Positions 7,751-49,026 of a DNA stretch of 64,000 bases are shown here, in pieces. Origin of the DNA: a gamma proteobacterium symbiont of Stewartia floridana (GTDB lineage Bacteria; Pseudomonadota; Gammaproteobacteria; Chromatiales; Chromatiaceae); assembly GCA_003676145.1 (NCBI GenBank), contig NAUB01000025.1:62001-126000 (forward strand), written 5' to 3'. How positions within the stretch are numbered: position 1 is the first letter of the stretch; every line of letters starts with the position of its first letter. The position numbers and the translations under genes were made by a program. The notes beneath the pieces were generated by a model. That model worked only from the letters and a program-made list of their open reading frames with translations, searched no databases and had not been told where the DNA came from.

Positions 7751-10700
7751 ATGATAAATGAAAGTCAGGGTTACATGAACAGAGGGCTACAGTTATTTGT
7801 ATTTCTGTGTCTCTCATTTCTGGTTACTGCGCTGAACGCAGCCTCATTGACCATCAATGTGGTTGATCAGTCAGGCAACCCAATCACTGATCCGAATTTC
7901 GGTTTTCGCTGGTTGCTGGAGAGGGATAACACCTTCCCGGTCGATCCGGCGAATCCTGGAACAACCGCTGATGAACTACTGTCGTTGAGCTTTCACGCCA
8001 GTAATCACGAAGTCGGCGTTGCTACTGACGGATCGGGTTCACTATCGGGCAATGTAGATGCATCTACAGCGACGATCGGTGATGTAATCCCTGCTGGACG
8101 TTACTACGTATCAGTACACCCCTACAGTGGTTACAGCCTGAGTGGCGATTCTGTTGATCTGAGAACGGTAGCGGCCGGTGAGGTTACTGTCACAGTACAG
8201 CAGCATCCGATCCCCACTGCTCAGATCTCGATCTATCTGTTTGAAGATAAGCATCCGGTGAATGGTGTTCCGGATCTGCCGGAAGAGCAGAATGACGGCA
8301 CGGTTGACTGGACTCAGTTCAGCCTGTTCCTGGAAGAGCCAGGTGGTCGTTACGGTGCAGCCGGTGGTCAGGTCATCCAGGATGCCTTCGGTAACTACCT
8401 CGGTACCACCTATGACCAGACCTGTGCCACCAGTAACCCCGTCGGCACCGGTGGTGATACTCCTGGCGGTATGATCAATGCGACCTGTATCGATGCAGAC
8501 GGCAACCCAGTTATCGATGTACTGGGTGACGGCACCATGCAGCCCGATGAGAACGGCTACCTGAATGTTAAGAACCTGGCACCCGGCAAGTATGGTGTGG
8601 TTATCATTCCGCCACCCAATGCCGGTTGGCAGCAGACCAGCACCATTGAGGGTAGTAAGGTTATCGATGCCTGGGTCAAGGCCAACGAACCTGCGGTTTT
8701 CGTCGAATTCGGTATTCCCGGCCCCCATGTCTTCATGGGTTTTGTGCGTCCTTTCGCCGATCTGCCCCCAGCCCAGCCGGGTGAGCAGGTTGCAACGGTC
8801 AGCGGTACCGTTACCGACATGCACATGTCCCGTAACCCTGCGACCACTTTCTTCACCGGTCGTCCTTTCCCGCAATGCTGGACAGCCATTAACCAGGTTG
8901 GTGTGGATGGTGCCCTTGGTCAGGCCGTCTACGCGGGTGCCTGCGGAGCGGACAGTGACTTCTCAGTGGATCTGGTTCCTCCGGGCCAGTATCAACTGGC
9001 CATTTGGGATGCCAACCTTGATGTGGTTTTTGCCTCCCTGTTGTTCACCGTGGATCCAACCGGTGGTACCTGTAACGGCGGGCTCTCCTGTAACTTCGGT
9101 GATGTGCCGGTATTCAACTGGTTCACTCGTCTCAACACCGGCATCTTCAGAGATGATGATCAGGACGGTTTCTGGGACGAAGGTGAGATCGGTATCGGTC
9201 CTGAAAGTCAGGAGACCGTACTGCGCTGGCGTGACGGTACCATCTATCAGGCTTTCCCGACTGATGGTGAAGGTTTCGCGCCTTTTGATGAAGTCTTTCC
9301 ATTTTTCCATTGGCTGGTGGCTGAAGTCAGCTTCGGTAACAAGAAAGCCACAGGTGCCACCTTTGTCGTGGACGCAGGTGGTGAAGTTCGTCCCGATGGC
9401 GGCTGGGCCGATCCTACCTTTGGCGAACTCAATCCTCAGGGACAGTGTGAGGCTCGTGGCGTAGGTCATAGCGATATCGTTATCTCGGCTACCGACCCTC
9501 GCGGTGCGATCGGCGACTGTCTCGGTTCTGATGACGGTGGCGTAACCTGGGTTGTTGAAAACGGCCGACAGATGATCAATCCGAATACCGGTAACAATCT
9601 GTCACGCACTGAGACCGGTCTGGTGCTCACTCAGGGCTTCCAGGGCTTCCTGGGTCAGACCAGTGTGATGCAGTTCGGTAAAGTCGACTACGTGATCGAT
9701 ACTCCATTCGACTTCACTGCATTCCCTCCAAGAATCTCCGAATATGTTGGTGAGAACGGCGGTATCTCCGGTATCGTCTACTACGCCACCACACGTGCGG
9801 AAGATGAGCCACAGTTCGCTGCGGCCGAGGAGTGGGAGCCTGGTGTACCTCGGGTGCAACTGGCCCTCTATGCGGATGGCGACGTCAACTGTCCTCCACT
9901 CAACAACTTCCCTGGTGATCCTTGCGATATCGACTGGAACGGCAACAACAGCCAAGATCCAGACGATGGCGTGATCGAGGATATCAATGGTATTCCCGGT
10001 ATTCAGCGTGCTGATGTAAACAACCATCCGCTGGATGTCTTCCCTGGACCTGAAGATGTGGATTACAACGGCAACGGTGTTTTTGACATGGGCGATGCCC
10101 TGCAGGTCACTCACACCGACAGCTGGGATGACAATCTGCCCACAGGTTGTCAGGGAACCAATAATCCTCCTGGCGCCGAGGTTGATCCTGCGGTGGATGA
10201 CCAGCGCTGTTTCGACGGCCTGCGTAACTTCAACCAGGTTCGTGATGCACTGTTCGACGGTGGTTATGCCTTCGAAGATTACGATCTGGACCATCTGGCC
10301 TCGATTCCTGCCTCTACCGGTTATAACGCCGCTGTCGTGGCCGCCAAGCTCACCGCTTTCTATGCTGATCTGAATACCGGTTGGCCCGAATTGAATCTTC
10401 CGGAAGCCTGGCTGATCCCAGGTGACTATCTGGTTGAATCAGCAACGCCTGCCGGTTACAAGCTGGTCAGGGAGCACCATAAGAATGTGGACTACGGTGA
10501 TGAGTACATCCCATCACTGCAGGCTTTCCCCGCCACCTGTGTGGGTGAGGAAGTGATGGTGCCTGAATATCTGGCGATGGCTACCAAAGATGGCAGTGGT
10601 GATGCAGCCCAGCTGATCCCCGGTGTTGAAGCCATTGGAGCGCCTTTCGCCGGTGAAATGAGACCGCTTTGTGATCTCAAGCATGTACCGCTCTCTGCCG

Positions 10701-13700
10701 GTCAGAATGCAGCGGCCGAGTTCTTCCTGATGACCGACGTGCCTAAAGCAGGCAACATCTCAGGCATGATCCTCAACGACCTGGCCAACGAGTTCAACCC
10801 GAACTCACCCCAGTTCGGTGAGAAGTTCGCACCGCCTCATGTACCGGTTGCGTTCTACGACTGGAACGGTAACGAGATCAATCGTGTCTATGCAGACAAG
10901 TATGGTCGCTACAACCTGATGGTTGCTTCGACCACTACCGCAAATCTGCCGATGCCTTCCGGTATGTCACCAAACATGCTGGTCTCCTGTATGAATGATG
11001 CGGGTCCGATTCCGAATCCGGATTTCACTGGTGCTGCCGGTGACGGTGTTGATGCCGGTGGTAATCCTGAGTTCATTATCGATCCCCATTTCGATACTCA
11101 GTACAGCCAGTTCTGTTACACCTTCCAATATATGCCGGGTACCATCACCTATCTGGATACCCCGGTTGAACCAGTGGCCGCGTTTGCCGGTCCGGATCAG
11201 TTCCCACTGGATTGTGAAGCGCCAACACAGACCCCGGCGATCTCCACCGTACTGCGTGAGGTGGTTCCAGCCAGCGGCATCGAAGGTCCTTTCGTGGTCG
11301 CCGGTACCGGTGAGAACATCGTCATCAACTCCAAAGGTCTGACCGCTGTTCGTAACCCGGAATGGGCCAACGGTGATCCTTTAGCTGAACAGAACATCGA
11401 TCGGGATTACGGTTTTGGTAGCGTTGCCGGTTCGGTTCTTGTTCAGGATCGCAACGGTAATCCTGTGGCTACTCTGGGTGTCGTATCCTGGGGTGACAAT
11501 GCCATTACCGCCTCTACTGGTGGTCTGGCAGCCGGTGAATACCAACTGCTGGTAGAGCACAGCAACGGTAGTGTCTCTCCCTCGGGTATCACACTGACCG
11601 TCGGTATCGCTGAAGGTGTGGGTCTTGGTCACAACAACTCCACTTATAACGTTGTCAATGTACCAAGTGCCGCTTATCCGACGATCCAGGATGCGATCGG
11701 CAGTCTGGATAACGGTCTTGGTGGCGTCAACGCTGGTGACCTGATCATCGTCAGACCTGGTCTCTACAATGAGATGCTGATCATGTGGAAGCCGGTCAAG
11801 CTGCAGGGCTTTGGTGCCGAGGCTACCATCCTGAATGCTCGTCAGACTCCGACAGAGAAGATCATCGCCTGGCGTGAGCTGGCCGCTGAGCTGGTTGGTA
11901 CCGGTACCATTGATCAACTGCCTGGTCAGCTTGTCCCCGTACCCTTCTTTGGTGGGGTTCAGGGTGCACTGGGCGCCCCGATCTTCCCAACGGAAGAGGG
12001 CGCAGGCATCATGGTTGCGGGTAAGTGGACCGGTCCTAACCGATTCCATCGTAACAACCGTAACCGCTATGCCCGTATCGATGGTCTGAGCATCATCGGC
12101 GCGAGTACCGGTGGTGGCATTGTTGCCAACGGTTACACCCGCTTCCTGGTCATTTCCAATAACCGTCTGACCACCAACTCCGGTTTCTACGGTGGCGGTA
12201 TCCGCATTGGCCACTCCACCCTGACCCATGAAGTTAATGGTGAGGATGATGAGTTCTTCAGACGCGGCTACAACAGCTGGCTTGAAGATCAGGCTGAAGA
12301 CGGTTTCATGGCCTATGATGACGCCTTTGCCGACAGCATGAATATCCATCATAACGAGATCATCAAGAATGGTGGATTGAATGGCGCCGGCGGTGGTATC
12401 TCTATCCATACGGGTGCCAACAACTACCGGGTTCGCAGCAACTGGATCTGCGGTAACTTCTCCAAAGGCGATGGTGCCGGTATCGGCCACTTGGGGCTCT
12501 CCCTCGGTGGCCAGATCCTGGATAACACCATTATCTTCAACGAGAGCTTCAGTCAGACTCCAGGCACCAAGCCTGCCGGTGCCGGCATCTTCGTCGGCGG
12601 TCTGGCCGGACTGCGAGTCGATGAAGAGACTGGCCTGACCCTGTCTCCCGGTTCCGGTAGCGTCAACATTCTCGGTAACGAGATTCGTGGCAACCTGGCC
12701 GGTGCCGGTGATGGTGGCGGTATCGCGCTGCTGAATGTCAACGGTGAGGACATCACAAAAGATCCTGATGTCTTCGGTCGCTGGTATCGGGTGATCGTTG
12801 CCAACAACATGCTGAGCAACAATGTCTCAGGTGTTGCTGGTGCGATCTCCCTGTCAGACAGTGTCAAGACCTACATCCGTTACAACACGATTGCGAACAA
12901 CGACTCAACCGCAACCGGTTCACAGGCTTTCGGTATCACTGATCCCAATCAGTCTATCGCCAAGCCGGCTGGTATCGTTGCCCGCTACCACAGTGCAACC
13001 ATGATGTCTCTGATCGATGATGACGTCGCGGAACAGTTCCCCGGTTCGCAGTTCGATGAAACTGATGTACGTAATCGTAGTGATGAACGCAGGACCTTCT
13101 CTGATCCGATCCAGCTGCTGGATAACATCGTCTACCACAACCGCTCCTTCTACTGGCGGAATACAGACGATCCAGCCACTGTGGTTCTGGAGAACGGTCT
13201 GGTACCGGCAAGCTGTGATAACACCACCAATACCAACTGCGATATCACAGTTGTCAACGTGGAGGATTACACCCAGGATCTGGCGGTGTTGAGTGGACAC
13301 ACCATCAACCCGGTACATCCACAGTACGGTGCGATGGCGCTGCGCCCACTGCGTAATCTCTTGCAGACCGGTGCATCGGCAGTTGCCAACAACACTTATA
13401 TTGATGGCTACTCAACCGCAAACAACGACCCGCACAACACGCTTGGTCCAGTGTTTATCAACGGTCGCTTCAATGAAGACCGGAATGCACTGCTCTTCCC
13501 AGAGTTCAAAGTGCTGCAGGCTGCCGGTGCATTCGATGAAGGCGGCAACTTCCTGCAGGTCAACTTCGGTCCGCTCACGCTGCTCGATATTGACGGTAAC
13601 ACTGCAACAGCGGATGCCCTTATCGATTATCACTTAGAGGCTGGAAGCCCGGCTATCGATGCGGCTGCCGCCTCGGCTGGTACTGGCATCTACTCAACCG

Positions 13701-13765
13701 ATATCGATGGTGATGCAAGACCGCAAGGTGCCAGAACGGACACCGGTGCCGATGAGAGGTTGTAA
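7751..13765 (+). CDS. Giant secreted protein: Ig/Cna-B-like modules plus right-handed beta-helix
   Basis: 2004-aa exported protein of unknown function. A signal peptide is clear (hydrophobic stretch LQLFVFLCLSFLVTAL, cleavage after LNA near residue 31). Residues about 33-1290 are Asp/Gly-rich beta-sandwich modules of the Cna-B/carboxypeptidase-regulatory kind (repeated forms such as LAPGKYGVVI, VPPGQYQLAI, IPGDYLVES). From about 1300 (PTIQDAIGSLD) to about 1760 there is a pectate-lyase-like parallel beta-helix with repeated N-I/N-R-I strands. The C-terminus (about 1966-2004) has SPAIDAAAA...DIDGDARP...DTGADE, the pattern of the choice-of-anchor Q domain. The ribosome site ctggag precedes the ATG at 7751; residue 9 is an alternative start. 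The MCO genes follow after a few bases, so it is probably co-transcribed with them and may be their surface scaffold or a polymer-binding partner. Confidence 0.85.
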   Translation: MINESQGYMNRGLQLFVFLCLSFLVTALNAASLTINVVDQSGNPITDPNFGFRWLLERDNTFPVDPANPGTTADELLSLSFHASNHEVGVATDGSGSLSGNVDASTATIGDVIPAGRYYVSVHPYSGYSLSGDSVDLRTVAAGEVTVTVQQHPIPTAQISIYLFEDKHPVNGVPDLPEEQNDGTVDWTQFSLFLEEPGGRYGAAGGQVIQDAFGNYLGTTYDQTCATSNPVGTGGDTPGGMINATCIDADGNPVIDVLGDGTMQPDENGYLNVKNLAPGKYGVVIIPPPNAGWQQTSTIEGSKVIDAWVKANEPAVFVEFGIPGPHVFMGFVRPFADLPPAQPGEQVATVSGTVTDMHMSRNPATTFFTGRPFPQCWTAINQVGVDGALGQAVYAGACGADSDFSVDLVPPGQYQLAIWDANLDVVFASLLFTVDPTGGTCNGGLSCNFGDVPVFNWFTRLNTGIFRDDDQDGFWDEGEIGIGPESQETVLRWRDGTIYQAFPTDGEGFAPFDEVFPFFHWLVAEVSFGNKKATGATFVVDAGGEVRPDGGWADPTFGELNPQGQCEARGVGHSDIVISATDPRGAIGDCLGSDDGGVTWVVENGRQMINPNTGNNLSRTETGLVLTQGFQGFLGQTSVMQFGKVDYVIDTPFDFTAFPPRISEYVGENGGISGIVYYATTRAEDEPQFAAAEEWEPGVPRVQLALYADGDVNCPPLNNFPGDPCDIDWNGNNSQDPDDGVIEDINGIPGIQRADVNNHPLDVFPGPEDVDYNGNGVFDMGDALQVTHTDSWDDNLPTGCQGTNNPPGAEVDPAVDDQRCFDGLRNFNQVRDALFDGGYAFEDYDLDHLASIPASTGYNAAVVAAKLTAFYADLNTGWPELNLPEAWLIPGDYLVESATPAGYKLVREHHKNVDYGDEYIPSLQAFPATCVGEEVMVPEYLAMATKDGSGDAAQLIPGVEAIGAPFAGEMRPLCDLKHVPLSAGQNAAAEFFLMTDVPKAGNISGMILNDLANEFNPNSPQFGEKFAPPHVPVAFYDWNGNEINRVYADKYGRYNLMVASTTTANLPMPSGMSPNMLVSCMNDAGPIPNPDFTGAAGDGVDAGGNPEFIIDPHFDTQYSQFCYTFQYMPGTITYLDTPVEPVAAFAGPDQFPLDCEAPTQTPAISTVLREVVPASGIEGPFVVAGTGENIVINSKGLTAVRNPEWANGDPLAEQNIDRDYGFGSVAGSVLVQDRNGNPVATLGVVSWGDNAITASTGGLAAGEYQLLVEHSNGSVSPSGITLTVGIAEGVGLGHNNSTYNVVNVPSAAYPTIQDAIGSLDNGLGGVNAGDLIIVRPGLYNEMLIMWKPVKLQGFGAEATILNARQTPTEKIIAWRELAAELVGTGTIDQLPGQLVPVPFFGGVQGALGAPIFPTEEGAGIMVAGKWTGPNRFHRNNRNRYARIDGLSIIGASTGGGIVANGYTRFLVISNNRLTTNSGFYGGGIRIGHSTLTHEVNGEDDEFFRRGYNSWLEDQAEDGFMAYDDAFADSMNIHHNEIIKNGGLNGAGGGISIHTGANNYRVRSNWICGNFSKGDGAGIGHLGLSLGGQILDNTIIFNESFSQTPGTKPAGAGIFVGGLAGLRVDEETGLTLSPGSGSVNILGNEIRGNLAGAGDGGGIALLNVNGEDITKDPDVFGRWYRVIVANNMLSNNVSGVAGAISLSDSVKTYIRYNTIANNDSTATGSQAFGITDPNQSIAKPAGIVARYHSATMMSLIDDDVAEQFPGSQFDETDVRNRSDERRTFSDPIQLLDNIVYHNRSFYWRNTDDPATVVLENGLVPASCDNTTNTNCDITVVNVEDYTQDLAVLSGHTINPVHPQYGAMALRPLRNLLQTGASAVANNTYIDGYSTANNDPHNTLGPVFINGRFNEDRNALLFPEFKVLQAAGAFDEGGNFLQVNFGPLTLLDIDGNTATADALIDYHLEAGSPAIDAAAASAGTGIYSTDIDGDARPQGARTDTGADERL

Positions 13766-13902: not shown

Positions 13903-15246
13903 ATGAAACTATTTAGTAAGCAAGCCCTTGCCGGAGCGATTGCCCTGGCGCTGCTGGGCATCTCAGGCCAGGCCAGTGCCATTGTCAATGTACAGTGTCC
14001 TGGGGATAACAACGGTGATGCAGACTGGAATGATGCTGGCGAATCCCAACCAGCGAATACCAAATGTATGCATCTGATCGCAGGTGACAGCTACGCCATG
14101 ATGTCTGACGGCAATCCGCTCTACACCTTCGGCTTCGGTGATCAGACCGGTACCGCACCTGACCAAGTAATCGGCGAGGGTATCCTCAGTGCCGAGTGGC
14201 CCGGACCGACCATCGAACTGAATGAGGGGGATCACTTCTACCTCAACCTGACCAATGTGGGTACCGTGGTTCGTCCCGATCTGTTCGATCCTCATACCGT
14301 CCACTTTCACGGCTTTCCGAACGCATCCGCAGCCTTTGACGGTGTACCTGAGGTTTCGATCAGTATCAACATGGGTTCGACCCTGACCTACTACTACAAC
14401 ATCGTTGAGCCTGGCACCTATCTCTACCATTGTCACGTGGAGGCCACCGAGCATATGGAGATGGGCATGTTGGCCAACCTCTACGTCCATCCAATTCAGG
14501 ATGAACTGGGTTGCTTTGATTTCGGGGCAGACAATCCAGGTACCACGGAATACGATCCTGTAAGAATACCGAATGGTAATTGTGCTGCAGCCGTTGGTAG
14601 TGGTGGTTATGTCTACAACGACGGTGACGGTACCACAGCCTTTGACGTGGAATCAGCGATCCAGCTTTCAAGCTTTGATCAGGTATTCCACGACGCCAGT
14701 CTGTTCGTACAGCCTCTGCCATTCGCTTTGCTGGAAGGCAACTATCCACAGTTCAACGGTCGGGGTTATCCTGACACCATCAATCCTGATCCACTGCCGG
14801 CTCCTGCTGATGCTACGGACCCAATCGCAGATCCTGCTGGCGTGAATGGCGGCAAGGTGACCGGGACTGTCGGTGAGCCTTTGACTGATGGCGCAGTCAC
14901 CCAGTTACTGGGTTCCCGTATTCAACTTGATCGCAACACTGGTGAACAGCGTCTGCTGCTGCGCCTCTCCAACGTGGGCCTGGATCGCTTCTGGACGATT
15001 ACTGCCATGGGACTGACCATGAAAGTGGTAGGCACCGGCGCCCGCCATATGCGCGGTATAGATGGCAAGAACATCTATAAAGAGGCTGCATCCCACAACT
15101 TCGGTGGTGGTGAGACCCTCGACATCATTATCGACACCACAGATGTTGCCCCGGGTACCTACTTCCTGCACGCCACTGAAGTGCACCAGATGAGTAATGC
15201 AACCCAGTTGGATGGCGGCATGATCACTGAGATTGTCATCAACTGA
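13903..15246 (+). CDS. Multicopper oxidase subunit carrying the type 1 copper site (MCO-1)
   Basis: 447-aa exported two-cupredoxin protein. The N-terminal domain carries HTVHFHG (His131, 134, 136) and HCHVEATEHMEMGM (His176, Cys177, His178, His184, Met189). By family rules these give a full type 1 copper site plus half of the type 2/3 trinuclear cluster. The second domain (about 250-447) has the typical NGRGYPD and a C-terminal FLHATEVHQMSN but no complete copper set. Ordinary MCOs keep both trinuclear half-sites in one chain; here the second half is absent. I chose the start at 13903 because gaggag lies upstream and a signal peptide (KLFSKQALAGAIALALLG) follows at once. The frame extends back to an ATG at 13768, also with a possible ribosome site, which would add 45 residues before the signal peptide. 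Confidence 0.88.
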   Translation: MKLFSKQALAGAIALALLGISGQASAIVNVQCPGDNNGDADWNDAGESQPANTKCMHLIAGDSYAMMSDGNPLYTFGFGDQTGTAPDQVIGEGILSAEWPGPTIELNEGDHFYLNLTNVGTVVRPDLFDPHTVHFHGFPNASAAFDGVPEVSISINMGSTLTYYYNIVEPGTYLYHCHVEATEHMEMGMLANLYVHPIQDELGCFDFGADNPGTTEYDPVRIPNGNCAAAVGSGGYVYNDGDGTTAFDVESAIQLSSFDQVFHDASLFVQPLPFALLEGNYPQFNGRGYPDTINPDPLPAPADATDPIADPAGVNGGKVTGTVGEPLTDGAVTQLLGSRIQLDRNTGEQRLLLRLSNVGLDRFWTITAMGLTMKVVGTGARHMRGIDGKNIYKEAASHNFGGGETLDIIIDTTDVAPGTYFLHATEVHQMSNATQLDGGMITEIVIN

Positions 15247-15273
15247 GCCTGGCCGAACTAGGAGATGAGATTA

Positions 15274-16704
15274 ATGAAACAACTACTCAAACAACCTGGA
15301 CGGCTCTTGGGCCTCCTGTTTTTGGGCATGAGCAGTGCGCTGACTGTGCAGCAGGCACAGGCGGAGCACGATATCCGCGGCATCTCACAGGGTGCCAACG
15401 GTGTCTTCAACCTCTATGCCTATCCATTCAACATGAACCTGCCGGAGGGCACCAGTCTCTACATGTGGGGCTTCGGTGATCTGGACCTGGGTGAAGGTGC
15501 TTCTCACCAAGCGGGCGCCAACTACCAGTTGCCCCAGTACCCGGCGCCGACACTGATCGTCACCGAGGGTGAGGCAGTCACCATCAATCTGGTGAACTAC
15601 GGTGTGCCGGACAATATCTCCATTGAAATGACCGGTCACGAGATCGACTCTCAATGTATCGATATTCCTGCACCTGGTGGCCCGACTCCGACAACCGGTG
15701 CGACCAACTGTACAGCAGGCCTGTTTACCAACGAAGCTGCTGTCGGCCAAGCCGTTAGCTACACCTTCACAGCGGGTTCTCCCGGCACCTATATCTATCA
15801 CAGTCTGGCCGGTCAGAATCCTGGACTGCATACCGAAATGGGACTGGTGGGTGTGATGGTCGTCAGACCGGCTGATTACGATCCGATCAACAACCGCACC
15901 GCTTATGGTGCCGGTACCGGAACCGATTACGATCACGAGAACCTCTACCTGATGACCGAGGTGGATCCGGATATCCATATTCAAATGGAGAAGGGACACA
16001 AGAACCACTTCACCAACACCGATCGCTATGCCAAGGTCTGGTTCATCAACGGCCGGGTTTTCCCGGATCTGTTCCAGGGTGACTACAACACCCTGTTTCC
16101 AAACCAGCCCTATGAGGCTCTGGTCATGTCGCGTCCCGGTGATGTGGTCCTGGTACGCAATGTCAATGCAGGACAGGATGCTCATCCGATGCACTACCAT
16201 GGTGAGAACCTGCGTTTTATAGGCCGTGACGGCAAGATGCTGAGTTCTGACGGTGCTGTGGCCGACCTGGGTCGTTCAGATAACACCATCAATTCACAAC
16301 CGAAACAGACGGTTGATGCCCTCTGGACCTGGACCGGTAAAGACCTGGGCTGGGACATCTATGGTCACGATGCCGGACACAACTGTATCGATGTCAGTCC
16401 ACGTGACGGATATGCGGATGCCAACTCGGACTATCCCGGTGAGTGGTGTAACGACCACGGCAAGCCGATTCCTGTCTCACTGCCCGGTGTGGGTGATCTG
16501 ACCCTGGGCGGCTGGTGGAGTGGCAGCCCCTTCCTGGGCGACACCGGTGACCTGCCTCCTGGCGAGGGTGGTCTGAATCCCTTTGGCGGCTACTTCCTGG
16601 TATGGCACTCCCATGCTGAAAAAGAGCTGACTACCTTTGACATCTTCCCTGGCGGAAGCCTGGGATCGGTAGTTGTGCTGCCTCCTGGTACACCAATCGA
16701 ATAA
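15274..16704 (+). CDS. Multicopper oxidase-type protein with half of a trinuclear site (MCO-2)
   Basis: 476-aa exported protein with two cupredoxin domains. The first has lost the copper motifs (IEMTGHEID, then YIYHSLAGQNPGLHTEMGL). The second has HPMHYHG (His304, 307, 309) next to LRFIGRDGK, and WHSHAEKEL (His445, Ser446, His447). The latter matches the HCH motif of MCOs but with Ser in place of the type 1 Cys, so this protein can give type 2/3 ligands but no type 1 copper. The ATG at 15274 is preferred because aggag lies 9 bases upstream; an ATG at 15265 overlaps that site. The protein starts 27 bp behind MCO-1, and the two probably complete one active site together. Confidence 0.87.
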   Translation: MKQLLKQPGRLLGLLFLGMSSALTVQQAQAEHDIRGISQGANGVFNLYAYPFNMNLPEGTSLYMWGFGDLDLGEGASHQAGANYQLPQYPAPTLIVTEGEAVTINLVNYGVPDNISIEMTGHEIDSQCIDIPAPGGPTPTTGATNCTAGLFTNEAAVGQAVSYTFTAGSPGTYIYHSLAGQNPGLHTEMGLVGVMVVRPADYDPINNRTAYGAGTGTDYDHENLYLMTEVDPDIHIQMEKGHKNHFTNTDRYAKVWFINGRVFPDLFQGDYNTLFPNQPYEALVMSRPGDVVLVRNVNAGQDAHPMHYHGENLRFIGRDGKMLSSDGAVADLGRSDNTINSQPKQTVDALWTWTGKDLGWDIYGHDAGHNCIDVSPRDGYADANSDYPGEWCNDHGKPIPVSLPGVGDLTLGGWWSGSPFLGDTGDLPPGEGGLNPFGGYFLVWHSHAEKELTTFDIFPGGSLGSVVVLPPGTPIE

Positions 16705-16720
16705 TCGGGAGGGCACAATC

Positions 16721-19700
16721 ATGAAAAGGTCTACTACCATGAAGCAAACACTGAAACCCATCGTAGTCGCCTGTGCCTTGGCTTTAGGTGCCGGACAAGC
16801 GAATGCATTGGATGTCTATCTCATTGCTAAACCATTCATAAAGGATCTGCCACTTTCGGGTGGCGGGACGCAAACCACCACCATGTGGGGTTATGCTCTG
16901 GATGATATCGGTTCTCCTGGTGCCTGCTACAATGCGGGCAACCCGGCGGATGCTGCCTGTACTGGTGCCGTAGCGAGTGCACCAGGGCCGCGGATCACCA
17001 TCGATCCAGCCGATCCTGTATTGAACATCTATCTCACCAATCTGCTGGATGAGCCGACCTCGATCGTGATTCCGGGTCAGCAGCTACCGCAGATGGGGCC
17101 AACCTGGGACGACGGCACAACAGGTGCTCGTACCAATCTGACCCAGAAGGTGCGTTCTTATGGTGTTGAAGCAGCGGCCAATGGGGGCACGCAGGTCTAC
17201 TCCTGGGCGGGCGCCAATGCCATCGACAATAGCGGTACACTGATGTATCACACGGGTACCTGGCCACAGAAGCAGCTCTATATGGGGCTTGCCGGTGTAG
17301 TCACTAAAGACGCTGATGTTGGCAATGTGCTCTATGATCATGACGGGGTTCCCGCCAGTGGTGATGAAGTAACCTATGCGAACGAGTTGATCCTCTTCTA
17401 CCACGATGTGGATACGGATTTTAACGCCGATGTGGTTGCCGGTACGCTGGAAAGTGCCATTCATCGTCATCCTACTTGGTATATGATCAATGGCGAACCT
17501 TACCAGGCCGGTTTTGCGGATATCGTCAACGGTTCAGATGGTGTCACTCCACTGACAACCGCTGGTCCGACCCTGCTGCGTTATGTCAGTGCCGCGAGTG
17601 AGAAGCATATCTCTGTATTGCAGGGCCTCTACGGTACAATCCATGCTGAGGACGGCATCCCCTATACTTATGAGGATGCTACTGGTGTGCATACCGCACC
17701 AAAAACTCAGTACTCCATTGGTATACCACCCCTGAAGACCAAAGATGTGGTCATTCATCCCACTTTCGGTGGTCGCTATGCGGTCTATGATGGCAACGGC
17801 AACATGACCAACCCGAGTGATCCTGAAGTGTTCACACAGGGCGACGATATCGGCGGCATGCTGCGTTTTCTCGCATTCAATGCCAACGGTAACAATCAAC
17901 CACCGATTGCCAATGCGGATCCGATCACCATCCAGATTCCGGAAATCGTCAGTGCTGACACAGCCTATCAGGTCACTGAGACCATCAATGTACTGGCCAA
18001 TGACCTGGATCCGGATAATGATGCCCTGATCCTTGGTGCAACTTCGATCGTCGGTGATGTCTTCTCGATTCCCGGTCTGACAATGTCATTGGATTGTCTG
18101 GCTGGCGGAACAACTTGTGATCTGACCGTCGATTCGCAACTGCCACCCACGGTAGTTGGGGGTGAAACCGCTCTGTATAACTATGAAATCACCACTGCGG
18201 TCAATACAACGCCGGTTCTTGGCAATATTGATCTGACCGTCGAGGTTAACGCTGCACCTGTACTGGCGGCTGCTCCTCAAGTCGTGGTGACCACAGACCA
18301 GCTGGTTGCCGATGTGGCTACCATCAATCTGGCGGATCTGGTAGCGGATGCAACCGATGCGACGGCCGGTGATACGGTAACCGTATCGGATACACCTCCG
18401 GTTGCCATCGCGGCTGTTCCTTCAACCACCGCAACCTTGCTGGGTTGTGACTACGTGGCAGGTACCTGCAGCATCAGCTTTGCGGGTACACCGGCTCCAG
18501 AACAGTTGAGCCTGGACTTCACCATGACCGACGGTCTGAATGTGGTTGAGGGTCAGTCTGCAACAGTCTCCCTGGCCTTCCCTGGACCAACGTTGTTTGA
18601 TGATACGACCACGCTGGATCAGGTCGGTGCGCTGGATCTTGCCGCGAACGATGTCAACCTGCCGGCCACTTACGGTCTGGCGCTGGCAACCGCTCCGTCG
18701 GCCGGTACTGCGACTGTGGAAGATGACGGTACGATTACCTACACCACAACCGCAGCACCGTTTACCGGTGACAGCTTCACCTACTGTCTGACCGCAGCGC
18801 CTCTGGATGACGTCTGTCTGACCGATCCGCCAGCTGCAACGGTGACCATCGATCCTGCTCCGGCATCCGGATTGATCGCTGTCGGTGGCAAGACCTATAC
18901 CGCTGATGAGGATTCGATCCTTGATGTACTTGCAGCCAACGGTCTGTTGATCGGTGAATCACCCATCAATGGCGGTACCCTGGCGGTAGTCGTGGATAGT
19001 GCACCGACCTGTGCCAACACCACAGCCGGCAGCTTCACCTACGATGGTACGACGGGTGAGTTCCACTATGAGCCTCTGTTGGATTGGAATAGTGTCAATC
19101 CGCCAGTGGACGACGCAGATGCCTGTACCCTGAATGACACCGCAGGTGCCAGAGGTGCCGACACCATCGTCTACCATCTGGAAGAGACCTATGACGATGG
19201 CGGCAATCTGGTAACCATAAGCAGTAATACGGTAACTGCTGAGATCACTGTCAATCCGGTCAACGATGCTCCAGTGGCTGTGAACGATACGTTCTATGTC
19301 CAGGATGCCTCTACCGCTGTATTGGATGGACAGGGTGAGCCAGTATCCATGACCTTCAGTGTTGCACCCGCAGGTGTTCTCGCGAACGATACCGATCTCG
19401 AGAATGACGGACTGCTGGCGACCGAAGTGAATGATCCTGACAACCTGGATCCTGCACTGGGTATCGATGGTTCCATACCAAGCTTTGCGATCGATCCTGT
19501 CGCAGTCGGTGTTCTGACCAGCATCGAGTATGAAGCGAGTGATCTGGTTGCTCAGAGCAACACCGCTACGGCAGACATCGTGCGTCAGGTCTCGGTTACC
19601 CGGGCCTCCTATCTGCAACGCGGCACAGCTGGTACCGGCAATGACAGATGGCGCATCAGAGGTTTGGTCGATACTGCCATACCCACGACAGGTAATACCC

Positions 19701-19972
19701 CTGGTGTTAATGTCTATCTGGTACGTGTTGTCAACGGAACACCTACCCCACGTATACCAATCGTGGTGACCGTAGGTGCTGGCAACAACAACAGTGGACG
19801 TATTAGGGCGAGTGGCGGACAGCATGTCTGGGGTCTCAATGTCAACAACGTTGGCAATACCCGACCAGAAATTGAGTCACCCGGTGTTGATGACTATCTG
19901 GAAGTTGAGGTGATTGATGCTAATTTCCCCAACGCGGTCTACTACAACGTCCCAATCGATATCCAGCCATAA
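16721..19972 (+). CDS. Multicopper oxidase-like domains fused to cadherin-like repeats (MCO-3)
   Basis: 1083-aa exported protein. The ATG at 16721 follows gggaggg and opens a signal peptide (cleavage near QANA). Residues about 25-390 are two cupredoxin domains of the same MCO family: YHTGTWPQKQLYMGL, MINGEPYQAGFADI, LLRYVSAASEKHISVLQG, AEDGIPY and KTKDVVIHPT all match family landmarks, but the copper histidines are missing. From about 393 (NQPPIANADP) to about 950 run cadherin/Big-like beta-sandwich repeats of the kind seen in surface adhesins (NAPVAVNDTF, LANDTDLENDG). A last Arg/Asn-rich beta domain ends the protein. It likely gives structural domains and an extracellular arm to the MCO complex; this is inference. 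Confidence 0.82.
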   Translation: MKRSTTMKQTLKPIVVACALALGAGQANALDVYLIAKPFIKDLPLSGGGTQTTTMWGYALDDIGSPGACYNAGNPADAACTGAVASAPGPRITIDPADPVLNIYLTNLLDEPTSIVIPGQQLPQMGPTWDDGTTGARTNLTQKVRSYGVEAAANGGTQVYSWAGANAIDNSGTLMYHTGTWPQKQLYMGLAGVVTKDADVGNVLYDHDGVPASGDEVTYANELILFYHDVDTDFNADVVAGTLESAIHRHPTWYMINGEPYQAGFADIVNGSDGVTPLTTAGPTLLRYVSAASEKHISVLQGLYGTIHAEDGIPYTYEDATGVHTAPKTQYSIGIPPLKTKDVVIHPTFGGRYAVYDGNGNMTNPSDPEVFTQGDDIGGMLRFLAFNANGNNQPPIANADPITIQIPEIVSADTAYQVTETINVLANDLDPDNDALILGATSIVGDVFSIPGLTMSLDCLAGGTTCDLTVDSQLPPTVVGGETALYNYEITTAVNTTPVLGNIDLTVEVNAAPVLAAAPQVVVTTDQLVADVATINLADLVADATDATAGDTVTVSDTPPVAIAAVPSTTATLLGCDYVAGTCSISFAGTPAPEQLSLDFTMTDGLNVVEGQSATVSLAFPGPTLFDDTTTLDQVGALDLAANDVNLPATYGLALATAPSAGTATVEDDGTITYTTTAAPFTGDSFTYCLTAAPLDDVCLTDPPAATVTIDPAPASGLIAVGGKTYTADEDSILDVLAANGLLIGESPINGGTLAVVVDSAPTCANTTAGSFTYDGTTGEFHYEPLLDWNSVNPPVDDADACTLNDTAGARGADTIVYHLEETYDDGGNLVTISSNTVTAEITVNPVNDAPVAVNDTFYVQDASTAVLDGQGEPVSMTFSVAPAGVLANDTDLENDGLLATEVNDPDNLDPALGIDGSIPSFAIDPVAVGVLTSIEYEASDLVAQSNTATADIVRQVSVTRASYLQRGTAGTGNDRWRIRGLVDTAIPTTGNTPGVNVYLVRVVNGTPTPRIPIVVTVGAGNNNSGRIRASGGQHVWGLNVNNVGNTRPEIESPGVDDYLEVEVIDANFPNAVYYNVPIDIQP

Positions 19973-20066: not shown

Positions 20067-20660
20067 ATGAAAAGTTCGCACTTTTCCGACAAAACGCCTG
20101 AGGATGAAAAGGAGAGACATCCTGGAGGCAATCCTCTGCTTGTAATACTGGTCCTGGTGATCTGCACCACGGCCTTTCTTGCATTCACCGCATCGGTCGC
20201 CAAGGCGGAGAGTAAAACCGCTCCACAGGCCGCAGAGCAGGCGGCACCCAAGCCCTGGAAACCGCCTGTTGCCATGCTGGCAGTTCCCAAACCTCCTGTG
20301 GATAAGGAGACCGCCAAGAAGATTGCGGAAAAATGGGGTATCGAACTGCTCAGTCTGCGTCTGGCTGCAGCCGGTTACATGATCGATTTCAGATTTAAGG
20401 TACTGGATATCGAAAAAGCCAAGATTTTTTTCGACAGTCGCATCAAACCGCACCTCAAAGTCGAGAAATCTAATGCTAAACTACCTATACCCATGGCCGC
20501 CAAGGTTGGTGCCTTCAGACCAACCAACCGGGGTATGAACATCAAGTCCAATAAAACCTACTATATGGTATTTGGCAATCCTGATGCCCATGTGAAATCA
20601 GGAGAAAAAGTAACAATGGTGATCGGCGACTTCAAAGCTGAAAATTTAACAGTCAACTGA
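20067..20660 (+). CDS. One-TM membrane protein of unknown function
   Basis: 197 aa, not recognised. A charged N-terminus (about 1-22) is followed by one transmembrane helix (about 24-46, LLVILVLVICTTAFLAF), then an Ala/Pro/Lys-rich linker (about 48-85) and a folded part of about 110 residues rich in Lys. Topology suggests a type II membrane protein with its C-terminal domain in the periplasm. It sits between MCO-3 and the Calx-beta protein in the same direction, so a role as an assembly or anchoring factor for the cluster is possible but not shown. Confidence 0.7.
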   Translation: MKSSHFSDKTPEDEKERHPGGNPLLVILVLVICTTAFLAFTASVAKAESKTAPQAAEQAAPKPWKPPVAMLAVPKPPVDKETAKKIAEKWGIELLSLRLAAAGYMIDFRFKVLDIEKAKIFFDSRIKPHLKVEKSNAKLPIPMAAKVGAFRPTNRGMNIKSNKTYYMVFGNPDAHVKSGEKVTMVIGDFKAENLTVN

Positions 20661-20682
20661 TCCGTTGACTCGAGAAGGAAAT

Positions 20683-23600
20683 ATGCAATATAGAAATCAT
20701 CTGCTTGGTTTTCTAACACTACTCGGACTGGTCTCATCTTTCGAATCCCACGCTGTCGTGACCGTCTATTGCTGCGATGCAACAGCCGAGGCCCAATTCA
20801 TCCAGGATCTTTCCAATCTCCCATCCATCTCGCCAGACATCACCAAAGAGAGCTTCGAAGGCAGTGCCTGGGACGGCACCCGCAGTACCGGTGTTCAGAG
20901 TGTGACCTCCCAAGGCATCACCTGGGCGGGCAGTTCCACGGAAGCCTCCTTTGTGCGTACCTCCACCAGTGGTGGCGATGTGCATGAGGGCAGCTATCTG
21001 ATGTTCCCAGTGGACAACCGAAATGATCACCTGGTACCGGATAAGTACACCTTGACCGCCAGCGGCACGACCCTCTACGGCGTAGGCGGCTGGTTTCGCA
21101 GTAGTACGGGCGCAAAGATCGGTTTTACCACCAACGGCTCGGCTCCGGTCGACTTCACCGGTTCACAGGCCACGGTTACAGGCTGGACCTTTCTCGGTTT
21201 CATCGATGATGCCGGTTTCACCAACGTACTGGTAGAGGCTGTGGATGAGGGGGGAGATGAGGTCAATATCTTCTTCTCAGATGATTTTACGCTGGGTGCC
21301 CAGTCCGGTGCATTCCCCGGCCAGAAACTGCAGTTCAGCAGCGCCACCTACAGCGTGGCTGAGAATGCCGCGACCCTTCAGCTCACCGTGGAACGTACCG
21401 GTGGTACCAGTGGTGCACTCTCCGTTGACTATGCAACTGACAGTGACAGTGAGACCGACACGGCAAGTGCCAATCTGGACTACACACCGGTTTCCGGAAC
21501 CCTCAATTTCGCCGATGGTGAGAGTAGCCAGCAGATCAGCATCGATATTCTGGACGACACCATCTTCGAGGACAGTGAGACGTTTACGATCAATCTGAGT
21601 GGTCTCAACATCGGTGCGCAGAACAGTGCCACGGTGACCATCACCGACAACGATGCGCCGGCCGTAGGCGAGGTCCAGTTCAGCAGCAGTACCTATACCT
21701 TCAGTGAAGGTGACGGCAGCGTTACCATCACCGTGCAGCGCGACGGCGGCAGCTCCGGCAGTGGTTCGGTGGATTATGCCATGAGTGACGCAACGGCCAC
21801 CGTAGGCAGTGACTACACCGCCGCCTCCGGAACGCTTTCGTTTGTCGACGGACAGATCAGCAGCAGCATAACCCTGGCCATCACAGACGATGCCACTACG
21901 GAAGGTACCGAGTCGCTCTTGATCACCCTCTCGAATCCTGTCTCGGTCGCACTGGCAGCCCGGGATGTTACCGAAGTCTCGATCACCGACAATGAGCCGG
22001 TCTCGAGTTCCGGTAGCCTGCAGTTCAGTGGTTCCAGTTATACCGCCTCAGAGGGCGATACATCGATTCTGGTGCCGGTGACCCGCACCAACGGCAGCAG
22101 TGGTGCTGTCTCGATCAGCTGTTCAACCAGCGATCTTACCGCCACCGCCGGAGCTGACTATACAGCAACCCAGGCCACGGTCAGTTTTGCCGATGGTGAA
22201 CTCACCAGCAATTGTACGATTCCGATTCTGGATGACAGCAGTTACGAAGCGGATGAGACCCTGATGGTCACCCTGGCTACGCCAACAGGTGGCGCTGTAC
22301 TTGGCACACCGGCCTCTGCGGTCGTGACTTTGAGCAGTGATGATCCGATACCTGCCGCGGGTAGCATTCAGTTCAGTCTCTCTGAGTATCAACTGAATGA
22401 GGATGGTGGCACCGCCACGATCTCTGTCTCCCGCTCAGGCGGCAGCAGTGGCGCCGTTGGGGTCAGCTATGCCACCAGTGATTCAACAGCCACCGCTGGT
22501 GAGGATTACACAGCCGCTTCCGGCAGCGTCAACTTTGCCAATGGTGGGACCAGTGGATCATTCCAGGTAACACTGCTCGACGACAGTGAATACGAAGGGG
22601 ATGAGCGTGTCACGCTGACTCTGAGCAACCCAACCGGTGGCGCCGTGCTGGGGCAGACATCCCAGGTCGATTTGGTGATCACTGAAGATGATGCGGCACC
22701 GGCAACCGGCTTGCTGGTCTTCAGTGCCAGCGCGCTTGGTGCGGACGAGACTGACGGACTGATCGAGGTAACCGTCGAACGTCAGGGTGGCAGTAGCGGT
22801 GCTGCACAGGTCAACTATGCAACCGCAGACGGCACCGCAATTGCCGGTATCGACTATCAGGTTGCCAGTGGTACCCTGATGTTTGCGGATGGCGAAATAT
22901 CCAAGACATTCGAAATCACCATCGTCGACGACGGACTCTTTGAAGGTACCGAAACCATTAATCTGATTCTGTCCGATGCGGTTGGCGCGTCACTGGGTGA
23001 TACCGCTACCGCAACCATCAGCGTGACCGATGATGACGAGCCGCCTGCTGCCGGTTCTCTGATCTTCTCCAATTCAGCCATCACGGCGGCTGAGGATGGC
23101 GGCGATGTCACCGTTACCGTTTCCCGCAGTGGTGGTTCAACCGGTGCCGTATCGGTCGATTACAACACAGCGGATGGCACTGCGATTGCCTCTTCGGACT
23201 ATACCTACACCTCCGGCAGCATCAGTTTTGCCGATGGGGATGCAGCGGATAAGACCTTTACCGTTCCACTGCTGAACGATTCTGAGGTGGAGTCCGATGA
23301 GACAATTCTACTGCAGATGAGTAACTTTCAGGGTGGGGCGGTAGCGGGTGATCAGAGCAGTGGCCAGATTACCATCACCGATGATGACGTACTCAACGCA
23401 TCCACCGTGATTGGTTTCACCATCACCAGCCTTACTGTGAATGAATCTTCCGTCAATGCGAGCTTCACCATCGATCGCAGTGTTGTTCTGACTAGCACGG
23501 TCAGTGTCGATCTGAGCGTTGGCACATCGACCGCTGTTGCCGGCACCGATTTCAATGTCACCACAGGAACCCTGCAGTTTGCCAGTGGCGAGACACAAAA

Positions 23601-23898: not shown

Positions 23899-23925
23899 GA
23901 GCAGTAACATATAAGGGTGTATACG

Positions 23926-24726
23926 ATGGATAAGAGCGCATGGATTAACGATTCGATCGAAAAGTGTTTCAGTGGCTTGCTAAAGGCTTCTGTGCTTTCT
24001 GTTGCCCTGTTGGCAACCTCCGGAGTCAATGCCACTGATCTGCCAAGCATTGTGAAATCCGAAGGTGATGAGACCCTTGGGCCCCAGTTCAAGCTCGACT
24101 GTGTCACCCGACCAGGTAAACCTCAGAACCATGCCGATCGGTTCAAGGTTGCCATGAACACGCACGACCATTCCCAGCATGCCGGTCACGATGAACATGC
24201 CCATCACCGGGCCATGATGGAGGACAAGTCCTACAAGGTAAATCATGCCAGCTATCATTTGCCGGATGTGAATCTGACCTCTCACAAAGGCGAGCAGAAG
24301 AAGCTGGCGGACATCCTCAACAATGACAAACCGGTGATGCTCAACTTCATCTTCACCACCTGTACCACCATCTGTCCGGTTCTGTCGGCCAGTTTTCATC
24401 AGGTACAGGAGATCCTGGGTGATGAGGTGGGTGATGTTTCCATGGTATCAATCACCATCGATCCGGACTATGATACGCCTGAACAGTTGATGAAATACTC
24501 GAAACGGTTCAAAGCTGGTGAGCAGTGGAATTTTTATACCGGTAGCTACAATGATGTGGTTACCGTCGAAAAGGCCTTTGATATCTTCCGTGGTTCAAAA
24601 ATGAACCATGAACCGATTACCCTGATCAGGAATCAAGGTGGACAGCACTGGACGCGCATCAATGGTCTGGCCAGTGCAGAAGATATTGTCAAGGAGTACA
24701 AAAAGATCGTATCGGCTGCAAATTGA
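23926..24726 (+). CDS. SCO1/SenC-family copper chaperone with His-rich insert
   Basis: 266-aa exported thioredoxin-fold protein. The ligands known for copper binding in this family are present: Cys146 and Cys150 in TTCTTICPV and His228 in SKMNHEP. Ahead of the domain lies a His-rich segment at residues 80-94 (HDHSQHAGHDEHAHH) that most SCO proteins lack and that could hold extra copper. The N-terminus has a hydrophobic signal (about 20-37). ATG 23926 is preferred over GTG 23917 because of the aaggg at 23913. Known SCO proteins load copper into cytochrome oxidase; no oxidase genes are here, so delivery to the neighbouring multicopper oxidases is the likely role. Confidence 0.88.
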   Translation: MDKSAWINDSIEKCFSGLLKASVLSVALLATSGVNATDLPSIVKSEGDETLGPQFKLDCVTRPGKPQNHADRFKVAMNTHDHSQHAGHDEHAHHRAMMEDKSYKVNHASYHLPDVNLTSHKGEQKKLADILNNDKPVMLNFIFTTCTTICPVLSASFHQVQEILGDEVGDVSMVSITIDPDYDTPEQLMKYSKRFKAGEQWNFYTGSYNDVVTVEKAFDIFRGSKMNHEPITLIRNQGGQHWTRINGLASAEDIVKEYKKIVSAAN

Positions 24727-26357
24727 TGCAAAAACTCAACAAAATGATTGCGGCGTTTACTCTATTCGCCGGATTGATCCTATTCTCTACCGCCTCACAG
24801 AATGAAGTGGAGGTTGACTCCAAAGCCTATGCAACCGGCAAAGCCCTCTACAAACAGGGCATTCTGCCGAACGGGAAACTGGTAAAGGCTACCATCCAGG
24901 GCGATATCTCGGTGCAAGGGGATCAATTGATCTGTGAGACATGCCACCGCAAGAGTGGTTTGGGCTCAACCGAGGGGCAGCAGGTTGTCCCGGCAGTTGC
25001 CGGCAGTGTGCTCTTCAAACCCCTGAAACTGCCCACCAGTAAACCACCCGAGCCACCGGTCTATCGTGAAGCCTACACCCGTGAGACCTTGATGGCGGCG
25101 ATCAGGGATGGGGTGGATGCCAATGGTTATCCACTGGATCCCTTCATGCCAAGGTATCAGATCGATGAGCAGGCACTCGATGGTTTGATGGCCTATGTCA
25201 GTACGCTCTCCAATACCCCATCACCTGGTGTAGATGAAGAGACCATCCATTTCGCCACCATTGTCTTATCCTCCAACAAGGCGGAGGAGAACAAGGCGCT
25301 GATCGATGTCATGGAGACCTATGTCGAGCAGAAGAACATTGAAACCAGATATGAGACAAAACGGGCCAAGAATGCGCCATGGCACAAGGAGTGGATGTTC
25401 AAGCCCTATCGTAAGTGGCAGATCCATGTTTGGGAACTTACCGGTGATGAAGCGAGCTGGCCGGAACAACTGAGCACATACTATACAAAGCAACCGGTAT
25501 TCGCGCTGGTCAACGGTCTGGTTCCGACAGGCTGGAGCCGGGTCAGCGAGTTCTGCGAAGGGCATGGCATTCCCTGTCTTTTTCCTACCACACAGCAGCC
25601 GGTGATCAGTGATGAGAACTACTACACCATCTATCTGAACAAGGGGGCGTCGCATGAGTCTGAAGCGGTTGCCTCCTATATCCGCAAGAACCGTCCTGCC
25701 GCACGTGTCGTGCAGATCCATGATGAATCTGACATGCTGAGTTCCATCTCATCCAACGCACTGATTGATGAGCTGAATAAGGCTGGAATCAGCGTAGACT
25801 CGGTTGCTCTGGGGCAACTTGGCGATAAAACAGCGAGCGATTTTCGGATAAGCAAGGACGATACAGTCGTTTTGTGGCTGGATAGAGGTAAATCAGAGCA
25901 ACTCTTCAACAGTGGGCAGCTTAACAGCGCCGAGTTGATCATGCTCTCCAGTCAGTATTATGGAACAGACACCAAGCTTATCCCGCAGGACTTGACGGAC
26001 TCTGTTCTCTTCATTCACAGTGCTGAAATGCCAGATAAGTTGAACAGGCTGCTGATCCGCTCAACCGGTTGGTTCAGGGCAAAAAGGATCTATAATAAAG
26101 AGACAAAAGAGATTCAAGCCAACGCCTACTTTTCGCTGAAGGTGCTGGGCGATGCGGTTAAGCACATTCGTGGCTATTTCTATCGCGACTATATGATTGA
26201 AAAGATTGAACACATGATTGATGACTTACCTTATACCTCGATCTTCCCTCGCCTCAGCATGGCGCCGGATCAAAGGTTTGCATCACGGGGGTTCTATGTA
26301 GCTAAAACTGACGGCAAAGGAGGAATCACTAATCTCACTGGTTGGATAGCTCCCTGA
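24726..26357 (+). CDS. Cytochrome c fused to a periplasmic substrate-binding-like domain
   Basis: 543-aa exported protein. A hydrophobic N-terminus (about 5-22) precedes a class I cytochrome c domain with one haem site, Cys70-Glu-Thr-Cys73-His74; a Met in PFMPRY is a candidate sixth ligand. From about residue 165 to the end a periplasmic-binding-protein-like domain follows, of the two-lobed receptor type (VNGLVPTGWS, FCEGHGIPCLFPTT, ASYIRKNRPAARVVQIHD). There is no permease or ATPase next to it, so it is a receptor rather than a transporter part. Its start overlaps the SCO stop (TGATG), and the sensor kinase follows 43 bp later; it may present a redox or ligand signal to that kinase. Confidence 0.82.
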   Translation: MQKLNKMIAAFTLFAGLILFSTASQNEVEVDSKAYATGKALYKQGILPNGKLVKATIQGDISVQGDQLICETCHRKSGLGSTEGQQVVPAVAGSVLFKPLKLPTSKPPEPPVYREAYTRETLMAAIRDGVDANGYPLDPFMPRYQIDEQALDGLMAYVSTLSNTPSPGVDEETIHFATIVLSSNKAEENKALIDVMETYVEQKNIETRYETKRAKNAPWHKEWMFKPYRKWQIHVWELTGDEASWPEQLSTYYTKQPVFALVNGLVPTGWSRVSEFCEGHGIPCLFPTTQQPVISDENYYTIYLNKGASHESEAVASYIRKNRPAARVVQIHDESDMLSSISSNALIDELNKAGISVDSVALGQLGDKTASDFRISKDDTVVLWLDRGKSEQLFNSGQLNSAELIMLSSQYYGTDTKLIPQDLTDSVLFIHSAEMPDKLNRLLIRSTGWFRAKRIYNKETKEIQANAYFSLKVLGDAVKHIRGYFYRDYMIEKIEHMIDDLPYTSIFPRLSMAPDQRFASRGFYVAKTDGKGGITNLTGWIAP

Positions 26358-49000: not shown

Positions 49001-49026
49001 GTGCAAAAACCGGATAGAATCTCTAA

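Follow-up and report, generated by a model that had tools for sequence, protein, structure and literature searches.

A multicopper oxidase apparently divided among three linked cupredoxin genes, a candidate heterotrimer

In a 64,000-nucleotide stretch of genome from a gammaproteobacterial symbiont of Stewartia floridana (contig NAUB01000025.1, positions 62,001 to 126,000 of the forward strand; the window hereafter), three consecutive genes, which we call MCO-1, MCO-2 and MCO-3, encode cupredoxin proteins that appear to share out a single multicopper oxidase (MCO). Comparison of their sequences supports the division of one MCO ligand set between MCO-1, with the type 1 (T1) copper set and half of a trinuclear site, and MCO-2, with the other half, MCO-3 being without it. 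The complementary half-sites, their invariance and the linkage of the genes are evident at the sequence level, and we consider it likely that the products form a heterotrimer with a single active site at the MCO-2/MCO-1 interface, in a ring ordered MCO-2, MCO-1, MCO-3. The genes lie head to tail on one strand, with the following features:

13903..15246, plus strand: MCO-1, cupredoxin domain 1 with the T1 set and half of the trinuclear site, domain 2 without a site
14293..14310, plus strand: MCO-1 motif HTVHFH, with H131 (T1) and H134 and H136 (trinuclear half-site)
14428..14469, plus strand: MCO-1 motif HCHVEATEHMEMGM, with H176 and H178 (trinuclear) and C177, H184 and M189 (T1)
15274..16704 (an ATG at 15265 is also in frame), plus strand: MCO-2, domain 1 ligand-free, domain 2 with the other half of the trinuclear site
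16183..16200, plus strand: MCO-2 motif HPMHYH, with H307, H310 and H312 (numbered from 15265)
16357..16590 (approximate edges), plus strand: MCO-2 extra stretch preceding the HSH motif, with conserved C374, C395 and H398
16606..16614, plus strand: MCO-2 H448-S449-H450 (HSH), with Ser at the place of the T1 Cys of an HCH motif
16721..19972, plus strand: MCO-3, pair of cupredoxin domains lacking the ligand set in roughly the first 400 amino acids, then cadherin-like/Big_9 repeats

Judged by eye, the N-terminus of each protein resembles a Sec signal peptide, and all three are presumably exported; by the same judgement, the MCO-2 start at ATG 15274 is better spaced from an AGGAG than that at 15265. 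MCO-1 and MCO-2 exceed the Pfam Cu-oxidase cut-offs. The MCO-3 of the window has no Pfam Cu-oxidase match at E 1; a profile of MCO-2 homologues matches it at 55 bits, and on this ground its assignment to the same family, made in an original prediction from the letters of the window, holds. In the window's 4.55 Mb genome there is one match to MCO-2, and a profile search also matches MCO-1. The extra stretch of MCO-2 amounts to about 80 residues more than MCO-1, and at least its final ~26 residues face a gap in both of the other proteins. With its conserved C374, C395 and H398 it is possibly a lid or a substrate site, and the strongest inter-chain coupling described below ends there.

A scan of genome contigs yielded 357 MCO-2 relatives, of which the best 80 were analysed together with the window, giving 81 loci. 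All eight MCO-1 ligands (H131, H134, H136, H176, C177, H178, H184 and M189) are invariant in every row that covers them, 77 of 77, the other two of the 79 rows being truncated. H307, H310 and H312 of MCO-2, which the scan pattern HP[FM]HxHG had partly preselected, and H448, S449 and H450, which are free of that selection, are invariant in 81 of 81 rows. Among the 81 rows of MCO-3, no column has His or Cys in at least 80% of rows. We then aligned the three proteins with one another at 16 loci picked from the 81. The full MCO-1 set is found in MCO-1 only: the H176 place has His in 13/16 MCO-2 and 6/16 MCO-3 rows, and the H184 place in three MCO-2 rows. H310, H312, H448 and H450 are invariant in MCO-2 and missing from MCO-3 and, apart from the H448 place, from MCO-1, where two of 16 rows, including the window (H423), have His at that position. 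A complete T1 set plus eight trinuclear histidines is reached only by combining MCO-1 with MCO-2. The ligand assignments of the original prediction are thereby borne out: all eight residues named for MCO-1 are present, as are the MCO-2 half-site and its serine (the numbers given, 304/307/309 and 445/447, fit the ATG at 15274 and rise by three when counted from 15265), and MCO-3 is without a copper ligand set, though 13/16 of its rows have His at the H307 place. The accompanying claim that neither MCO-1 nor MCO-2 can be active alone stands as far as the ligands go, each set being incomplete singly by alignment, while inactivity itself is a prediction.

To place the two half-sites, we matched a 41-row profile of MCO-1 and a 28-row profile of MCO-2 against PDB sequences. 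The entry 3g5w ('Multicopper oxidase type 1', 318 residues) ranks first for MCO-1 and second for MCO-2; we take it to be the type C homotrimer from Nitrosomonas europaea, and 3g5w and 2zwn are presumably both type C two-domain MCOs. MCO-1 domain 1 pairs its HTVHFHG and HCHVEATEHMxMGM with HTIHWHG and HCHVNVNEHVTMRGM of 3g5w (72.0 bits). In MCO-2 domain 2, HPFHTHG pairs with HAIHTHG at 16.8 bits and WHSH with IHDH at 3.1 bits, the latter weak alone, and a single MCO-2 sequence matches domain 2 of 3g5w at E 2.8e-4. The other two domains also align with 3g5w, the ligands missing, at 43.1 bits for MCO-2 domain 1 and at 13.0 bits for MCO-1 domain 2, of which just the final part is covered. Two-domain MCOs are described as trimers in which trinuclear ligands come from two protomers, with T1 N-terminal in type C (PMC13151041, in excerpt). 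The trio resembles type C in that its chains have two cupredoxin domains and MCO-1 has its T1 set in the first, and differs in that 3g5w holds both half-sites on one chain whereas the trio has them on separate gene products, so that each trio could form one site at most. The best explanation of the alignments would be that MCO-1, MCO-2 and, by profile similarity, MCO-3 are type C two-domain MCO paralogues that have undergone complementary losses.

The picture of the putative enzyme that follows is inferred, from its assembly and the order of its ring to its copper content, reduction of O2, partners and electron donor. MCO-1 would keep the first-domain half, the T1 copper with H134, H136, H176 and H178, and MCO-2 the second-domain half, H310, H312, H448 and H450; MCO-3, keeping neither, would complete the assembly. 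The chains would pack as two-domain MCO homotrimers do, here as a heterotrimer, with one trinuclear cluster where MCO-1 domain 1 meets MCO-2 domain 2. Electrons from an outside donor, plausibly a solid mineral, Fe(II) or Mn(II), would enter at the T1 copper of MCO-1 and run via C177-H176/H178 to the shared cluster, where O2 would be reduced to water. An SCO1 protein encoded nearby is the probable copper supplier, and a MofC-like cytochrome and a large protein encoded upstream are probable partners.

The linkage of the three genes is nearly uniform. All three occur in order on one strand at 78 of the 81 loci, and at the remaining three (L066, L071 and L100) MCO-2 lies no more than 240 bases from a contig end; at L110, which had been flagged as out of order from its frame start, the MCO-3 domain is downstream as at other loci. 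Later searches gave 72 loci at which MCO-2 was clear (>250 bits), some of them overlapping one another or the earlier loci; the trio was complete at 63, and at the other nine MCO-2 is close to the end of the retrieved stretch.

If type C-like packing is kept, MCO-2 precedes MCO-1 in the ring, which gives the order MCO-2, MCO-1, MCO-3 (ring 2-1-3) in place of the gene order (ring 1-2-3). Structure prediction and couplings between chains bear on this order. We ran AlphaFold2 on a same-frame read-through of the three open reading frames (ORFs) of L105 (1175 amino acids) with a 44-row alignment (A3); L055, L066, L071, L100, L110 and the target L105 had been left out of a list of rows. A3 replaced a 102-row alignment (A2) that included single chains and in which MAFFT had put many MCO-2 and MCO-3 rows in MCO-1 columns. 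The resulting pseudo-fusion model has a predicted template modelling score (pTM) of 0.79 and a mean predicted local distance difference test score (pLDDT) of 76.8. By E-value, its top Foldseek matches are ceruloplasmin, factor V/VIII and MnxG (9bxa). The T. thermophilus laccase entries 2xu9 and 6w2k match it with TMt 0.69 over about 770 columns (2xu9: 769) among the 50 matches shown, a length consistent with a stretch running from MCO-1 domain 1 through MCO-2 domain 2; by reasoning, which is indirect here, a laccase arrangement is expected to extend over more than 1100 residues in ring 1-2-3 and about 735-800 in ring 2-1-3. Couplings were computed from 139 paired sets, 110 of them non-redundant at 90%, with L071 and L085 left out here and in the distance comparison below. 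Among the top 100 inter-chain pairs in direct coupling analysis (DCA), 34 fall in domain pairs of ring 2-1-3 and 11 in those of ring 1-2-3 (expected 23.6 and 24.0). All 12 DCA settings, run on the same data, favour ring 2-1-3, and the fraction of 300 null draws with circularly shifted domain labels that equalled or exceeded the observed value was 0 to 0.06. The excess is located in MCO-1 domain 2/MCO-3 domain 1 and MCO-2 domain 1/MCO-3 domain 2. We regard the couplings as modest support for ring 2-1-3, and a six-domain ring from three chains as likely, with indirect and mixed support. The top-scoring pair between chains is MCO-1 P130, next to the ligand H131, with T413 in the MCO-2 extra stretch. 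A reading of the couplings as residue contacts was rejected: the effective number of sequences (Neff) was about 75, and pairs between chains scored much the same as pairs within them.

A number of results weigh against this arrangement. In the L105 model the ligand loops have pLDDT below 50 (106-108, 122-124, 127-137, 764-772, 783-791 and 811-818). The six-domain matches align with it in gene order without superposing (TM about 0.2, root-mean-square deviation about 33-37), so that the model is unlike a gene-order ring; this would be expected of a ring in another order and, equally, of a wrong arrangement. Two further laccase entries, 6wcn and 9cpm, reach only 0.50 over about 570 columns, and the longer laccase span would fit MCO-2 domain 1 to MCO-3 domain 2 equally well. 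A read-through model of MCO-1 and MCO-2 from the window (907 amino acids, 27 rows) is too poor to settle the arrangement either way (pTM 0.46), and a fold search with it gave no three-domain match. The correlation between distance matrices of the chains (Mantel r 0.90, 0.72 and 0.72; 0/1000 permutations), a point in favour of the trio, would be expected from shared descent. Of nine mutual-information settings one gave a null fraction of 0.013 and the other eight lay between 0.07 and 0.64; in three of the nine, 1-2-3 pairs outnumbered 2-1-3 pairs. The block that would hold the copper site, MCO-1 domain 1/MCO-2 domain 2, is unenriched in the DCA top 100 (10 pairs, 9.3 expected), and two blocks belonging to neither ring, MCO-1 domain 2/MCO-2 domain 2 and MCO-2 domain 2/MCO-3 domain 2, are somewhat enriched (18 vs 13.0 and 19 vs 14.2). 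The 3g5w alignments of MCO-2 domain 2 are individually weak, as their bit scores indicate. Lastly, no ORF among the 504 with matches joins two different members of the trio, so the search for fused homologues that had been proposed as a check came out negative. Nine ORFs with two separate matching stretches are single proteins interrupted by an insertion. Four long frames resembling fusions (L208, L198, L101 and L110) were rejected as stop-to-stop frames overlapping a neighbour in another frame.

The expectation that 2+2+2 domains assemble into one six-domain enzyme thus stands for the division of ligands and the linkage, with the ring itself backed indirectly by the three-ORF model and the couplings and left without help from the two-chain model; the joint structure prediction that had been suggested gave a pTM of 0.79 and poorly resolved ligand loops. 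The likeness to MnxG and ceruloplasmin did not hold up: as in type C, T1 is here a first-domain site, and for the ligands to come together the chains must follow one another in an order other than that of the genes. Type C two-domain MCOs should replace them as the apt comparison.

Three other accounts of the trio must be set against the heterotrimer. MCO-1 and MCO-2 might suffice, as a heterodimer or an alternating ring, leaving MCO-3 as an anchor or a separate surface protein. MCO-3 is indeed the least conserved chain (35-53% identity to L105, the lowest, compared with 53-76% for MCO-1; also the least conserved in two of three locus pairs compared), it is without a conserved His or Cys column, and in the window it has a long repeat tail. 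We nevertheless find this account unlikely: MCO-3 retains two domains of the same kind and is present wherever contig ends permit, and the model that includes it outscores the one without (pTM 0.79 vs 0.46), though targets and alignments differ and the comparison is not a clean one. It is also conceivable that no site is shared at all, with MCO-1 a blue-copper carrier and MCO-2 a mononuclear copper or structural protein in separate electron-transfer or metal-binding roles. The contact between MCO-1 and MCO-2 is a prediction, which favours this view and counts against the heterotrimer alike, and a comparable trio in Sideroxydans is treated as three cupredoxin proteins in the excerpted text of PMC12016527. 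Yet the MCO-1 and MCO-2 sets sum to a T1 set plus eight trinuclear histidines, invariant on both sides, and a lone T1 carrier would have no need for H134, H136 and H178, which are kept in 77/77 rows; we judge separate roles improbable.

That the trio instead works like a copper nitrite reductase, or as some other enzyme that does not use O2, its copper site lying between chains, seems to us very improbable. Nitrite reductases do occur among the profile matches of both MCO-1 and MCO-2, and record titles place relatives in Desulfobulbaceae and Geobacter, groups with an anaerobic life. The best matches, however, are listed as oxidases (3g5w, 2zwn and 1aoz), and MCO-1 and MCO-2 alike carry HxxHxH with HCH or HSH, the trinuclear-cluster pattern, unlike the single type 2 (T2) site of NirK.

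Tandem trios are already in print as gene clusters (PMC5566968, PMC12016527). Sideroxydans lithotrophicus ES-1 has tandem MCO genes, Slit_1816-1818, with an SCO1 gene (Slit_1813) and a cytochrome gene (Slit_1812), according to excerpts of both papers; among the open-access papers searched, the tags Slit_1816-1818 are named in PMC12016527 alone. Excerpts of that paper add that two of the three products have MCO motifs and one, larger, is without them, that similar clusters occur in other bacteria, and that Slit_1816-1818 reach a higher abundance in late cultures on magnetite than in those on Fe(II)-citrate. The window's trio resembles that of Sideroxydans in gene make-up and in the nearby copper chaperone and mofC-like cytochrome, a match by description only. 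In their excerpted text neither paper describes a shared active site or complex for the Sideroxydans trio, and the titles and abstract beginnings of the open-access papers listed gave nothing pointing to split or heteromeric MCOs. The OmpB/MofA clusters of Geobacter and Leptothrix likewise set an extracellular MCO beside a mofC-like cytochrome, some with SCO1/SenC (PMC5566968, in excerpt), as at 23917-26357 of the window, and differ in having single MCO genes; this likeness is one of cluster description and of an extracellular MCO.

It has been proposed that six-domain chains of these enzymes arose from homotrimers with two domains per chain. With the six-domain MCOs (ceruloplasmin, factors V/VIII and MnxG) the trio shares a total of six cupredoxin domains. 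Theirs, however, are in a single chain, whereas no ORF examined fuses members of the trio, and T1 is in the first, not an even-numbered, domain of MCO-1. Bacterial six-domain MCOs have a mononuclear site in domain 2 and a trinuclear site between domains 2 and 3, and in evolutionary schemes for blue copper oxidases, copper sites are lost after duplication (PMC3600357, in excerpt). We give about even chances to a broader proposal: that the trio is a natural heterotrimeric MCO to whose single trinuclear cluster two different genes contribute, an extant form midway between the homotrimers of two-domain MCOs and the six-domain MCOs. It would define a phylogenetically widespread class of extracellular oxidases, perhaps acting on metals or minerals, with the large upstream protein as fourth subunit. 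If so, an unfused trio of paralogues with complementary site loss would preserve a step between two-domain and six-domain MCOs. Genes of the Slit_1816-1818 type, so far listed as encoding three separate cupredoxins with a link to magnetite growth, would best be expressed and assayed jointly, as MCO-1 or MCO-2 tested singly would be expected to look inactive.

By record titles, MCO-2 relatives occur in Gamma-, Beta- and Alphaproteobacteria, Desulfobulbaceae, Geobacter, Acidobacteria, Nitrospirae, Planctomycetes and Verrucomicrobia. Among named records, those nearest to the window come from Candidatus Thiodiazotropha, symbionts of lucinid clams, at 99% (L040) and 97% (L041) identity; in the open-access literature we found no paper joining Thiodiazotropha with a multicopper oxidase. 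The trio is uncommon among sampled genomes. Strong MCO-2 matches occur in 5 of 185 genomes of the window's class, and matches at E <1e-100 in 2 of 398 of its phylum. Elsewhere the counts were 13/297 in the phylum of a Geobacter-labelled genome (E 1e-30) and, at E 1e-60, 7/399 in the order of a Gallionellaceae genome, 23/277 in the class of a Desulfuromonadales genome and 13/297 in the phylum of a Holophagae genome. One Geobacter-labelled metagenome-assembled genome has two copies of the cluster (L096 and L106), which over the covered parts are 98% identical in MCO-1, 84% in MCO-2 and 65% in MCO-3. A two-gene version occurs in the window's class (L006, L007, L008, which is the same place as L028/L039, L011 and L013), as tandem proteins of about 320-390 amino acids with HTIHxHG and YHCH in the first half of one and HxHG in the second half of the other; the second protein also has LHTH in L006 and L008. 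It is perhaps an independent or earlier split of a like kind.

The conserved unit extends beyond the three genes, and four neighbours are of note:

7751..13765, plus strand: large protein of 2004 amino acids with weak SdrD_B/SpaA similarity and a choice-of-anchor Q domain, candidate fourth partner
20067..20660, plus strand: small conserved protein of 197 amino acids, family unassigned, adjoining MCO-3 downstream
23917..24726, plus strand: SCO1/SenC copper chaperone, candidate copper loader
24723..26357, plus strand: MofC-like protein with a cytochrome c and a periplasmic-binding domain, candidate electron partner

A relative of the 2004-residue protein, which itself has no PDB match, adjoins MCO-1 upstream at 67 of the 69 loci with room for it (exceptions L079 and L107). 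It shares one ORF with MCO-1 at L078, L081 and L082 and with MCO-3 at L107, L033 and L035 (the last two from one genome), and this sharing with both suggests a physical partner beside both, which in turn suggests from sequence a fourth subunit. Downstream, a relative of the 197-residue protein adjoins MCO-3 at 64 of 68 loci with room (not L095, L102, L104 or L108); the protein has nothing above the Pfam cut-off, in NCBIfam, or in PDB at E 1. Among the 53 loci with more than 6.5 kb, an SCO1 relative lies downstream at 26 and a MofC-like relative at 21. The domain make-up stated for MofC-like proteins in an excerpt of PMC5566968 agrees with that of the 24723..26357 product.

Other genes of the window lie close by. 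A Calx-beta protein at 20665-23898 has similarity to GlyGly-CTERM proteins, and HisKA_3 sensor kinases at 5576-6409 and 26401-27792, possible regulators, flank the cluster. Further downstream, a type II secretion operon at 41180-51291 (GspD, E, F, three N_methyl pseudopilin-like proteins, K, a PilN-like protein, M and C) could export folded assemblies, and near it, at 37794-40694 on the minus strand, lies a subtilase with Calx-beta repeats.

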